The translations under genes were made by a program, and so were the position numbers. The notes under the pieces were generated by a model that was given only the letters and a program-made list of their open reading frames with translations, searched no databases and was not told the DNA's origin. From Parvularcula marina (GTDB lineage Bacteria > Pseudomonadota > Alphaproteobacteria > Caulobacterales > Parvularculaceae), in contig NZ_QUQO01000002.1 of the NCBI RefSeq assembly GCF_003399445.1, positions 62,001-126,000 of the forward strand: DNA of 64,000 nt, given 5' to 3'. Below, in pieces: positions 20,302 through 24,567 of the stretch (position 1 is its first letter; each line of letters begins with the position of its first letter).

Positions 20302-21027
20302 ATGAACGCGAAACCCAACGCGCCGGCGCGCGCCAAGCGCAGCCGCGAGGATTGCATCCGTCCGTCAAGGAGCTTTTATCTCCGTAAATTCGGTCATCTG
20401 ATGAATGCCATCCGGACAGAGCTGATCATTGTCGGGCTCTTTGTCGTCCTTATGACCTATGCCGGAAATCTCGCGGGCGATCTGGAATTTGTCGTAAAGG
20501 ATGCCGTGCTCGCGGCGGTTCTCCTGATGCTGGCGACCGCCTTTACCGCCTATGACGTGATCGCGGGCGAAATTTTCATCACCGGGCGGGCTGGGAATTG
20601 TCCGAAGGAATGGCGCGTTAGGCCCATGATCGTTATTGGGCTTTTTATCCTTGAGCTGATGATGTTCATCGTCAATCTTGGCATCCTCTTGATGCCCCTG
20701 ATGATTGTTCTGGATATCAATTTCATGGATGTCAGCGCGGCACAGATATTCGCGCTCGCGGCGATCTGGCACTTGATCAATGTGCTGTGGTATCTGGTCT
20801 CACCGGTTGAGCTGCGGGATTTCATCCGGCATGGCGGCTATGCGCTGATCAATGCAGCGCTGTTCCTCTTGATCTCCACCGATGCCTATAGCGCTCTTCC
20901 GATCATCGGCGGCTGGTCGCATGATATGATGACGGTCGCGGGCTACGCGATCATCGTCAGCATGATCTACGTCATCCAGATCCGCGGCTACATTGCTGAA
21001 AGCGCTGCTGCCGAAGCGGAGATGTAA
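20302..21027 (+). CDS. uncharacterised polytopic membrane protein
   Basis: A 241-residue protein with a basic N-terminus and about six hydrophobic helices, for example TELIIVGLFVVLMTYAG, MIVIGLFILELMMFIVNL and AVLLMLATAF. No transport or enzymatic signature is apparent. It starts 35 bp after the GNAT gene with GGGGGACAAG upstream and may share its transcript. Function unknown. Confidence 0.75.
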   Translation: MNAKPNAPARAKRSREDCIRPSRSFYLRKFGHLMNAIRTELIIVGLFVVLMTYAGNLAGDLEFVVKDAVLAAVLLMLATAFTAYDVIAGEIFITGRAGNCPKEWRVRPMIVIGLFILELMMFIVNLGILLMPLMIVLDINFMDVSAAQIFALAAIWHLINVLWYLVSPVELRDFIRHGGYALINAALFLLISTDAYSALPIIGGWSHDMMTVAGYAIIVSMIYVIQIRGYIAESAAAEAEM

Positions 21028-21618: not shown

Positions 21619-21650
21619 AACCCCGGTGCCTCTGGCGCCGGGGTTTTTTG
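21619..21650 (+). terminator. intrinsic terminator after the GlsB-like gene
   Basis: AACCCCGGTGCC and GGCGCCGGGGTT form a strong stem (one mismatch) around TCT, followed by TTTTTTG. Confidence 0.88.
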
Positions 21651-21787: not shown

Positions 21788-21815
21788 TTGAACAATGTTC
21801 ATGAACGATGTTCAA
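21788..21815. promoter_or_regulatory. 28-bp near-perfect palindrome before the ketosynthase operon
   Basis: The left arm TTGAACAATGTTCA and the directly adjoining right arm TGAACGATGTTCAA are inverted repeats with 12 of 14 positions matching. Each arm is itself a small palindrome (TGAAC/GTTCA half-sites), giving four half-sites in 28 bp. It ends 18 bp before the preferred ATG at 21834, so it looks like an operator for a dimeric or tetrameric regulator. The ATGs inside it explain a misleading longer reading frame. Confidence 0.65.
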
Positions 21816-21833
21816 TGGCTCGGGGAGAGAGCG

Positions 21834-22967
21834 ATGCAGGATGTCTATCTGACCGCCGCCGGGGCCTGCCTGCCGGGTGCCCCGGTGCCAAATGACCGGA
21901 TGGTGCGCCATATCGGCGTGCTCGATCCGCAGTCGGAACGGCTCGGCCGGTTGATCCTGCGCCACAACCGGATCGAGACGCGACATTACGCGCTGACCGA
22001 AACAGGGGAGGCGACCCATTCCAATGCATCGCTGGCAGCCACGGCCTTGCGCGATGCGATGGGCAATGGCGGCTACGGGATGGAGGAGCTGTCGCTTCTG
22101 GCGGCAGCAACGACGCAAGGGGACTTGCTTGTTCCCGGTCATGCCAGTGCCGTGCACGGAGAGCTGGGCGCAGGTCCGCTCGAAATCGCCAGCTTCCAGT
22201 CGGTCTGCGCCAGCTCAATGATGGCGGCGAAATATGCCGCGCTGTCGGTCGGCGCAGGCGAGGCGCGTCTGGCTGCCGCGACAGGATCTGAATTCTCTTC
22301 GCGCTGGTTCCGCCCGTCTTTTTATACCCCTGCGGAGGAATTGCTGCAGAATAAAGAGCATCGCATGGCGGCGGAGTTCCTGCGCTGGACGCTCTCTGAT
22401 GGGGGCGGGGCGGTCCTGTTTGCGGACCGTCCGGGCGCAAGAACGCCGTCCTATAAGGTCGAGTGGATCACCCTTACCTCGCTCGCTGACCGGTTCGAGA
22501 CCTGCATGATCGCAGGGCAGGGGCCGGAGCATCGCGAAGATTTACGGAACAGCTGGTCCTTCCATCCCGGTGGTCCAGCGGCAGCGGCCCGCGATGGCGC
22601 CATCATGCTTTATCAGGACATGGTGCTCCTCAAGCGGATCATCCGTGCCTGGGTCGGAGAATATCTCAAACTCGTTGATGGCGGGCGCGTCGATCCCAAA
22701 GGAGTCGACTGGCTGCTCTGCCACTATTCAGCGCATTCACTCCGGGAAGAGATCATCTCGCTCCTCAAGACTACGGGCGGCATGATCGATGAGGAGAAAT
22801 GGTTCACCAATTTGCCAACGGCGGGGAATACGGGCTCGGCCTCGCTCTTCGTCATGCTCGATGAGTTCAACCGCAAGGGGCTTGCGCGGCCCGGCGACAA
22901 AATTCTCTGCATCGTGCCCGAAAGCGGGCGCGCCGTGATTTCCTTCATGATGCTGACGGCCCTCTAA
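21834..22967 (+). CDS. beta-ketoacyl-ACP synthase III-like ketosynthase
   Basis: A 377-residue thiolase-fold ketosynthase of the KAS III branch, closest in pattern to StlD/DarB-type enzymes that condense acyl chains in secondary lipid pathways. The catalytic triad is visible: C125 in SVCASSM, a histidine in CHYSAHS (H297 or H301) and N332 in TAGNTGSAS. The ATG at 21834 follows GGGGAGAG and matches the usual N-terminus (MQDVYLTAAGACLPG). An upstream ATG at 21795 lies inside the palindrome. The next gene begins 13 bp after its stop. It is not the housekeeping FabH, because the neighbours are not fatty-acid synthesis genes. Confidence 0.88.
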   Translation: MQDVYLTAAGACLPGAPVPNDRMVRHIGVLDPQSERLGRLILRHNRIETRHYALTETGEATHSNASLAATALRDAMGNGGYGMEELSLLAAATTQGDLLVPGHASAVHGELGAGPLEIASFQSVCASSMMAAKYAALSVGAGEARLAAATGSEFSSRWFRPSFYTPAEELLQNKEHRMAAEFLRWTLSDGGGAVLFADRPGARTPSYKVEWITLTSLADRFETCMIAGQGPEHREDLRNSWSFHPGGPAAAARDGAIMLYQDMVLLKRIIRAWVGEYLKLVDGGRVDPKGVDWLLCHYSAHSLREEIISLLKTTGGMIDEEKWFTNLPTAGNTGSASLFVMLDEFNRKGLARPGDKILCIVPESGRAVISFMMLTAL

Positions 22968-22979
22968 AGGAGTAATTCC

Positions 22980-23669
22980 ATGGCCTATGACACATTGCCT
23001 GAAGACAGCCTGACACAATCGGTGATGCGCCGTCTTGCGCTGGTCTGGATCGATTTCGAAGGCCGGCTGGAGCAGGTGCCGATCATCCGGCGGCTGAATG
23101 CTGGCCGGTTCACGCTCGAGGATTACCGCGCGCTCCTTCTCGATCTGCGCCAGCAAGTCGTTGATGGCGGCTGCTGGATCGCGCGCGCGGCCAGCCATGT
23201 CGATGCAAAGCATATTGATCTCCGCTCGCGCTTCATGCGCCACGCTGTCACAGAGCACCGGGATTTTCAGATGCTGGAGGCCAATTACGTGAATGTCGGC
23301 GGTGCAGCCGAAGACATCCGCCGGGGTCGGAAGAATATCGGCTCGGAGGCACTCTCCGCCTATATGTTCCATAAGGCGTCCCAACCGAACCCGTTCGATC
23401 TCTTGGGCGCGATGTTCATCATCGAAGGTCTGGGCAGCCGCAAGGCGACAGAATGGGGTACCGCCATTCGCGACACGCTCCACCTCCGAGACGATCAGGT
23501 CAGCTTCCTTCTCTATCACGGGGAGGAGGATGACGATCACCTTGCTGACTTTGAGAAATGGGTCACCCGGATCGTCCGGACATCGGAGGAGGGCGACGCG
23601 CTGGTCCGTACGGCCGAAGTCGTCGCCCGGCTCTATGCGCTGCAATTGGAGGAGGTCGGCCGTGGCTGA
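22980..23669 (+). CDS. iron-containing redox enzyme with haem-oxygenase-like fold
   Basis: A 229-residue all-helical protein of the TenA/PqqC/haem-oxygenase-like superfamily. Candidate metal ligands are in the right order for a diiron oxidase or oxygenase of this fold: E92-H93 in TEHRDF, E149 in FIIEGLG, and H180, D184-186 and H187 in YHGEEDDDH. Relatives with this fold include UndA and other haem-oxygenase-like diiron oxidases acting on fatty acids or amino acids. AAGGAG precedes the ATG. Its place after a ketosynthase suggests an acyl-derived substrate (inference). Confidence 0.82.
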   Translation: MAYDTLPEDSLTQSVMRRLALVWIDFEGRLEQVPIIRRLNAGRFTLEDYRALLLDLRQQVVDGGCWIARAASHVDAKHIDLRSRFMRHAVTEHRDFQMLEANYVNVGGAAEDIRRGRKNIGSEALSAYMFHKASQPNPFDLLGAMFIIEGLGSRKATEWGTAIRDTLHLRDDQVSFLLYHGEEDDDHLADFEKWVTRIVRTSEEGDALVRTAEVVARLYALQLEEVGRG

Positions 23670-24567
23670 GCCGCTCCATGTGAAAACGCATGACCCGAAG
23701 GACCCTGATCCCTGGCACGCGCTGCTGCTCGATCAGTCGATCCCGATTGCGCAGGAAGCAAAAACGGCCCTTCTGCGTGGGAACCAGAGCCGGTCTCGGC
23801 GTTATCTGTTGCCTATCGTCCGACCGGTCATTTTCGTCTTTTTCCTCCTTGTGCTGTTCTTCCGCATGATCAGTCCGCGCTGGCCGCACTGGCCGAAGAC
23901 GCTGCACAATGTGATCTATTGGGGGCTGAGGACATTTGCGACGCCCGATGCCAACCGGCTGATCCTCCGGCATTTCATCATCGGCACGGAGATCATGCAG
24001 TTCATCCGCGATAATGCCGGGGTTGCGGCACCGACCATCCCCTTGCGTCCCACAACGCTGGAGGATCTGCGGGACAACACCTTCCTCCAGCACGACCTCA
24101 ATATCTATAATTTCATCATCGGGCTGAATTCAGAACTCAACGCCGCCGGGCGGGAGCTGTCGCCACCGGACCAGATCGATTTCTCTGCCATTTCAGACGG
24201 GCCAATCGAGCTTGGGCCACTGCCCAACGGCCGCCTCAATGCCGTTGATGTCCAGACGGCGATTGAAGCCTATACGCCGGTTTACGGCTTCTTCCTTTCC
24301 CGGAGGGATTTCGAGCGCGCCGCCAATTCACTCCAGCTTGATGAGACCATCGCGATCTATGTCGCGCAGCTTCTGGGGGATGATCACCATCTGACCTTCG
24401 TCAATAATCATCACCCGATGGTGCCCCTGTCTCTTTTTGAGACAGGCTTCCGGCTGATGATGCATGGCTATGACGCGGAGGCGCTGCACGGCTATCTGCG
24501 GCAGAAAAAGCGGCTCGCGGGCCAGCAAAAGGGGGCCACCGCCCCCAAAATTTCGGCTGGTAATTGA
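23662..24567 (+). CDS. uncharacterised membrane-anchored protein (DUF6999-like) of the ketosynthase operon
   Basis: From a GTG overlapping the preceding stop by 8 bp (GGAGGAGG upstream) it encodes 301 residues. There is one strong hydrophobic helix (about 48-69, LLPIVRPVIFVFFLLVLFF), then a helical domain with conserved-looking motifs LRHFIIGTEIMQFI, FLQHDLNIYNFIIGLN and DDHHLTFVNNHHPMVP. The His/Asp richness may mean metal binding. The family is recalled as DUF6999 but that name is tentative. Tight coupling implies joint function with the ketosynthase and diiron-type enzyme. Confidence 0.75.
   Translation: MAEPLHVKTHDPKDPDPWHALLLDQSIPIAQEAKTALLRGNQSRSRRYLLPIVRPVIFVFFLLVLFFRMISPRWPHWPKTLHNVIYWGLRTFATPDANRLILRHFIIGTEIMQFIRDNAGVAAPTIPLRPTTLEDLRDNTFLQHDLNIYNFIIGLNSELNAAGRELSPPDQIDFSAISDGPIELGPLPNGRLNAVDVQTAIEAYTPVYGFFLSRRDFERAANSLQLDETIAIYVAQLLGDDHHLTFVNNHHPMVPLSLFETGFRLMMHGYDAEALHGYLRQKKRLAGQQKGATAPKISAGN

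Follow-up and report, generated by a model that had tools for sequence, protein, structure and literature searches.

What is made by three adjacent genes of Parvularcula marina that encode a ketosynthase, a putative oxidase and a protein of unassigned function? The genes lie in a stretch of 64,000 nucleotides of contig NZ_QUQO01000002.1 (the window; coordinates count from its first letter), all on the plus strand. They encode a StlD/DarB-like ketosynthase (KS; 21834..22967, 377 residues, with Cys125, His297 and Asn332), a candidate oxidase of the haem-oxygenase-like (HDO) fold (22980..23669, 229 residues) and a DUF6999 (PF22523) protein (23662..24567, GTG start, 301 residues). The three same-strand open reading frames (ORFs) and the 8-bp overlap between the second and third, as described in an earlier note made from the sequence alone, are confirmed, and the gap between the first two is 12 bp instead of the 13 bp given there. 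An alternative in-frame ATG at 21795 is possible for the KS, and its start was set at 21834 because the residue numbers of that note and the homologues match this position. The trio is a widely conserved bacterial unit, and many common bacteria may make a lipid that has not yet been recognised. We consider the chances evenly balanced that the trio works as a single pathway to an oxidised lipid with two fatty-acid-derived chains and a dialkyl ring.

A scan of genome contigs for DUF6999 found at least 521 encoding stretches, and the best 80 were kept as loci. As named in their records, these are mostly from Alphaproteobacteria, including Caulobacter vibrioides (locus L036), with others from the gammaproteobacteria Saccharospirillum and Microbulbifer and from Acidobacteria and Acaryochloris. 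They span three phyla, the acidobacterial and cyanobacterial ones being metagenome bins. By tblastn the trio is complete in 78 of the 80 loci, a count that includes fragments, the KS being cut by a contig end or broken in 8 of the 78. Lack of joint conservation, named in the earlier note as one way to refute its proposal, is thus not what was found. Two loci (L022 and L066) lack only the KS, and just 162 and 42 bases, respectively, separate the start of their HDO matches from the end of the contig. In L083 the KS lies ~8 kb upstream. An ORF that looks by eye like a TetR-like regulator (L083:8529-9128) is located directly upstream of the HDO gene there, and a similar ORF cluster occurs in 5 of 81 loci. 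A fourth conserved neighbour was considered and rejected: apparent antisense ORFs of the trio aside, the commonest cluster given by a crude ORF caller, presumably UvrB, occurs in only 13 of 81 loci. Alignments A3 and A4 used 57 of the 80 loci and A5 used 46, each plus the window.

The distribution of the trio has also been surveyed in genomes at the level of class, phylum and family; some genomes recur between surveys, which are not independent. Among 385 genomes of the class, DUF6999 is present in 6, the window's included. Strong HDO matches (E<1e-98) occur in the same 6 genomes, and the KS occurs in these 6 and in G125, whose contig stops just after the KS. A further 12 genomes show weak HDO matches (E 2e-18 to 4e-23). 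Within the family the trio is patchy, being found in 4 of 62 genomes and in none of 9 other genomes of the same genus, which suggests loss or exchange within the family.

In several loci the KS and the HDO-fold protein are one polypeptide. The phylum survey covered 398 genomes and located StlD/DarB-type KSs at 21 places in 20 genomes; the 21st place is the window, and the other 20 loci were examined. Genes for HDO and DUF6999 lie beside the KS in 8 of the 20, and in 6 of these 8 the KS and HDO form a single ORF of 626-655 residues. Two further fusions (L060 and L092) are found among the 80 DUF6999 loci. In the other 12 of the 20 loci a gene of ~305 residues, taken as DarA, is located near the KS. 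The presumed DarA and the HDO-DUF6999 pair occur together in none of the 20 loci, and the presumed DarA is found in none of the 80 DUF6999 loci. It is also absent from the window's genome in a protein search with a query from genome G793, in which genome G785 matched at 47% identity as a control. Searches for the presumed DarA gave three matches on plasmids, annotated as hypothetical, and none in phages. The KS of a Streptomyces plasmid (L104) also has a DarA match. The DarA label was given because the KS adjacent to the gene in L129 passes the StlD/DarB cut-off and because a BtrH-type gene (NCBIfam DarH, 470.9 bits with a cut-off of 300) is present in L137, the single locus that was checked. 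In the Azoarcus dar cluster the BtrH-type gene is darE, and darA and darB are given as the dialkylresorcinol (DAR)-aromatase and the DAR-cyclase (PMC3949708). NF053538 was also tried as a DarA model, a guess that proved wrong.

The top NCBIfam match of the window KS is the StlD/DarB family NF005293, and its best PDB sequence match is StlD 5gk0 (E 4.7e-67, KS residues 3-376 aligned). Against the FabH model it scores 39.7 bits, below the curated cut-off of 292.1. By these sequence comparisons, the window KS is closely related to the ketosynthase of dialkylresorcinol synthesis and is not a ketoacyl synthase III (KAS III) of fatty-acid synthesis. A second KAS III-like gene is located elsewhere in the window's genome, adjoining an ORF that we take to be PlsX-like. 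The earlier note had assigned Cys125, His297/His301 and Asn332 to a KAS III-like condensing enzyme. Cys125, His297 and Asn332 do not vary in any of the 80 rows of trio or fused KSs, the window KS among them, or in any of the 13 DarA-associated KSs, and this part of the assignment stands. His301 lies outside the invariant or nearly invariant columns. The KS counts omit 10 of the 80 loci, in which the KS is missing, incomplete or shorter than 300 residues.

The second gene product was predicted to have a haem-oxygenase fold, and this prediction is well supported. The protein matches PF14518 with 33.8 bits (cut-off 28.9), and its AlphaFold model has a mean pLDDT of 95. In VIA, the best fold match is 3dde (Z 25.8, root-mean-square deviation 1.9, 217 residues aligned), followed by CADD (1rcw; Z 23.2, deviation 2.1, 209 aligned), with UndA lower (Z 19.3). 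Foldseek also matches 3dde, CADD and UndA. Residues Q59, H88, E92, D95, E149, H180, D184 and H187 are invariant in all 90 HDO homologues, the divergent fused forms included; one of the 90 rows is L126, which is separated from L076 by zero branch length. DtpC was considered as a precedent for such an HDO and set aside: it belongs to the same fold class, but its gene is co-transcribed with katE and not with a ketosynthase (PMC13232832).

The third gene product is a full-length member of PF22523 (376 bits, gathering cut-off 27), and even the divergent Pseudoalteromonas member scores 321.9 bits. Its AlphaFold model has a mean pLDDT of 93.7. The protein has one strongly hydrophobic stretch at residues 49-67, with a 19-residue hydropathy mean of 2.69, and 78 of 90 homologues have a 19-residue hydropathy window of at least 1.6. 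The earlier description as an uncharacterised membrane protein agrees with this stretch and with a family of no given function, the membrane association itself being likely. Thirteen polar residues (D24, R46, R103, H104, N118, H144, D145, D196, D227, N249, R264, H268 and E273) are present in all 90 homologues, and N98 is kept in 89. These residues resemble an enzyme-like set and possibly form a second metal site.

How might the three proteins work together? Cyclohexanedione formation is, we assume, the reaction of the DarB/StlD class. A described class of ketosynthases joins a beta-ketoacyl thioester to an unsaturated acyl thioester and so makes 2,5-dialkylcyclohexane-1,3-diones (PMC4578411). 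In the proposed pathway, the DarB-like KS would, judging from its family, condense two such thioesters from fatty-acid metabolism, most likely to a 2,5-dialkylcyclohexane-1,3-dione. The HDO, acting as one body with the KS, would then activate O2 at a metal site and oxidise the KS product, as gene position, fusion and fold suggest. The chemistry could be desaturation/aromatisation, or oxygenation beyond it, and the HDO would here stand where dialkylresorcinol clusters have DarA. O2-dependent oxidation of the ring product would be the simplest HDO step. In the last and weakest step, DUF6999, which has conserved His and carboxylate residues and is probably an enzyme associated with the membrane, would modify or deliver the product there. 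These roles of the HDO and of DUF6999 are the ones that we infer.

The lack of an acyl carrier protein, ketoreductase and thioesterase, pointed out in the earlier note, is no puzzle: heterologous expression of darA and darB gave dialkylresorcinol (PMC3992019), and substrates can therefore come from fatty-acid metabolism with no need for a local acyl carrier protein. Among the products suggested there for oxidation of an acyl-derived condensation product (an alkene, a resorcinol or a pyrone), the resorcinol-type branch is favoured over the other two since the KS is close to StlD/DarB. Among the matches listed from open-licence PMC papers on HDOs, DarB/StlD, ketosynthases, resorcinol lipids and Caulobacter/Brevundimonas, no title or abstract opening describes the set, in line with the earlier statement that no such pathway was known. 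A more specific and more tentative version, which we are inclined to doubt somewhat, is a widespread oxygen-dependent route to two-chain ring lipids. In this version, the DarB-like KS and an HDO with a rearranged site (H88-x3-E92-x2-D95, H180-x3-D184-x2-H187 and E149) would be one channelled condensing-oxidase, and DUF6999, membrane-associated, possibly metal-dependent and of a fold unmatched in the PDB search, would finish the product.

The joint conservation of the trio, the KS-HDO fusions, the alternation of the HDO-DUF6999 pair with the presumed DarA, the split in the KS tree, the fold and invariant residues of the HDO and the desaturase and hydroxylase genes near some fusions all speak for the proposed pathway. 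Several observations, set out among other results here and in the next three paragraphs, weigh against it. The window KS scores 329.6 bits against NF005293 and 279.4 bits against the DarB model NF053539, and reaches neither curated cut-off (450 and 550, respectively). The fused homologue L128 is also below both (361.8 and 297.1 bits). On the other hand, the DarA-associated KS of L129 passes the first (582.4 bits) and is below the second (477 bits). As the window KS lies below the curated cut-offs while the L129 KS passes the first, the KS reaction may have shifted. The KS could in fact have left the cyclohexanedione reaction for another head-to-head product (a beta-keto acid, a pyrone or an acyloin-like compound), which the HDO would decarboxylate or cleave to an alkene or ketone. 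UndA, an HDO among the fold matches, is indeed a fatty acid decarboxylase (PMC13108848). However, the catalytic and many further invariant residues are common to the trio KSs and the DarA-associated KSs, and at the thresholds used only one column (G255/S) sharply separates the two groups. There is also no OleA or PpyS entry among the NCBIfam matches of the window KS, the library content for such models not having been checked. We regard this other chemistry as improbable. A smaller discrepancy concerns the number of loci with a KS, which is 77 of the 80 in a profile search of ORFs no shorter than 60 residues and 78 by tblastn.

The presumed metal site of the HDO-fold protein differs in part from that expected. 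The ligand residues of 3dde used in this comparison were assigned from their spacing, and are presumed to be the canonical ones. Four of the six positions are kept (E92, corresponding to E84, and H180/D184/H187, corresponding to H171/D175/H178), and to this extent the plausible diiron ligand set of the earlier note is canonical. The other two are changed: the column that aligns with E47 of 3dde varies (N 60, G 10, D 9, Q 6 and others among the 90 rows), and H87, the presumed canonical His, aligns with the invariant D95. H88 and E149, which correspond to H80 and E141 of 3dde, could substitute for the two changed positions. These residues could make up a site with three His and as many as four acids, rearranged with respect to the 3His/3carboxylate set of HDOs (PMC13108848), and a diiron centre is possible. 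Loss of the presumed canonical helix Glu aligned with E47 and replacement of the His by Asp would also fit a metal-free (TenA/PqqC-like) protein or a structural partner of the KS that is not a redox metalloenzyme, and VIA gives good matches to TenA and PqqC as well. We find this highly unlikely, given that H88, E92, D95, E149, H180, D184 and H187 do not vary in any homologue and that in fold the protein comes closest to 3dde and to CADD, which binds metal. The HDO profile does find the divergent Pseudoalteromonas HDO (L103), yet this protein matches no Pfam family at E 0.01, PF14518 included. For DUF6999, the PDB searches revealed no known relative in either sequence or fold: the sequence search (protein and profile) gave nothing significant, Foldseek gave 130 matches at E<=10 and none at E<=0.001, and the best VIA match has a Z of 3.7, which does not show a new fold.

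Additional genes accompany some of the fusions. A fatty-acid desaturase (PF00487) gene lies upstream of the fused KS-HDO in all 6 fused survey loci, and a fatty-acid hydroxylase (PF04116) gene in 5 of the 6 (hydroxylase/desaturase regions at L136:5566-7366 and L143:5594-7306). In the desaturase profile the training row from L135 is in the wrong frame, and the L135 match rests on the other rows. The divergent trios of a Pseudoalteromonas plasmid (L103) and of genome G776 (L127) have instead an unnamed hydrophobic, His-containing protein of 188 residues directly upstream of the KS (L103:11436-11990 and L127:8441-9007), with no Pfam match. Profiles built from 2 to 5 rows found no homologues of the desaturase, the hydroxylase or the 188-residue protein in the 80 loci or the window; the fusions L060 and L092, which are among the 80, accordingly have no desaturase or hydroxylase nearby. 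These extra genes would suit a lipid that undergoes additional oxidation in certain lineages.

The DarA label is a presumed one, based on gene order and context, and no family model names DarA. It could be argued that HDO and DUF6999 are a plain non-homologous replacement of DarA and that the product is an ordinary 2,5-dialkylresorcinol. The KS is partnered by either the presumed DarA or HDO and DUF6999 in all 20 phylum-survey loci, and HDOs are known to desaturate (PMC13108848). The KS tree shows a single split: all 61 HDO-associated rows fall in one branch, outside which lie all 13 DarA-associated rows. The SH-aLRT support of this branch is 82, short of the threshold of 95, and the tree was made by a quick method, its root being placed on an outgroup with a very long branch. 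The tree contains 76 rows; the 19 of 95 that were left out are closely related to others and come mostly from Brevundimonas, with some from Sphingomonas and Phenylobacterium. The fused KS-HDO rows do not form one clade in it. However, a fused KS-HDO/DUF6999 unit and a DarA/DarB unit are present side by side in genome G785, at separate loci (L139, L142). It is therefore unlikely that HDO and DUF6999 simply do what DarA does, and the products of the two G785 units probably differ. In addition, two genes would stand in for one, and one branch has the extra desaturase and hydroxylase genes. Plain replacement thus seems unlikely to us. No DarA and no HDO lie within 12 kb of the KS of a Prevotella plasmid (L105). 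In the same tree, Acaryochloris L055 is placed among gammaproteobacterial rows, and this bin may therefore be mixed.

A recent foreign origin of the trio has been rejected, as its guanine-plus-cytosine content (0.59-0.61) is within the range of the flanks and the window KS groups with other Parvularculaceae KSs in the tree. The trio looks like a unit of its own because a terminator-like hairpin with a T run (21628..21650, +) is located upstream, 3' of a small Transgly_assoc gene (PF04226; 21349-21588), from which it would set the trio apart. This hairpin is a pattern match only, and the stretch contains 5 terminator-like sites against 2.6 expected from shuffles. A pattern search of the stretch found no promoter-like site. 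Further upstream on the same strand, 20302-21024 encodes a hydrophobic protein of 241 residues with no Pfam match at E 0.01. The DUF6999 family has 4 pattern matches in viral contigs, none of them a relative, and its name was not found in open-licence PMC papers.

A separate HDO operon has been observed in genomes of the class (L151-L154, L157, L159 and L161). It consists of an AMP-binding ligase-like ORF, an HDO (PF14518) and a short-chain dehydrogenase-like ORF. The HDO is fused to the AMP-binding part in L157, and the two are also one ORF in L152 and L153. Two of the L151 ORFs (HDO and dehydrogenase) and the L157 fusion were checked with Pfam, and the rest were assigned by eye. For these loci and for G125 the ORF finder also took ORFs without a start codon.

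What would the trio add to what is known? If the more specific version were true, Caulobacter, Brevundimonas, Sphingomonas, Microbulbifer and others would contain a lipid that has so far gone unrecognised. Study of the trio would probably reveal an unrecognised lipid, and the KS-HDO fusion makes the question of the substrate directly testable. As a self-contained three-gene pathway in genetically tractable bacteria, the trio would give the DUF6999 family a function. About a dozen HDOs have been functionally validated (PMC13108848), and the trio would add ketosynthase-coupled oxidation to their repertoire.

Compared with known systems, the HDO-fold protein is similar to CADD, UndA, SznF and 3dde in its fold, its PF14518 match, its H-x3-D-x2-H motif and its helix Glu (E92). 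It differs from them in that the presumed first Glu is variable, the canonical His is Asp95, and H88 and E149 are invariant. A further difference is that the regular neighbour or fusion partner of HDOs of this type is a ketosynthase. The third protein is a full-length member of PF22523, for which the Pfam entry gives no function. The closest parallels to the trio as a whole are the Dar (DarA/DarB) and StlC/StlD systems, whose KSs have the same Cys, His and Asn and many other invariant residues, and a two-chain lipid is the likely product class of the trio too. On the other hand, the window KS is under the curated cut-offs, the trio KSs are on their own side of the KS tree, and the trio, without DarA in the 80 loci and the window's genome, has HDO and DUF6999 instead.

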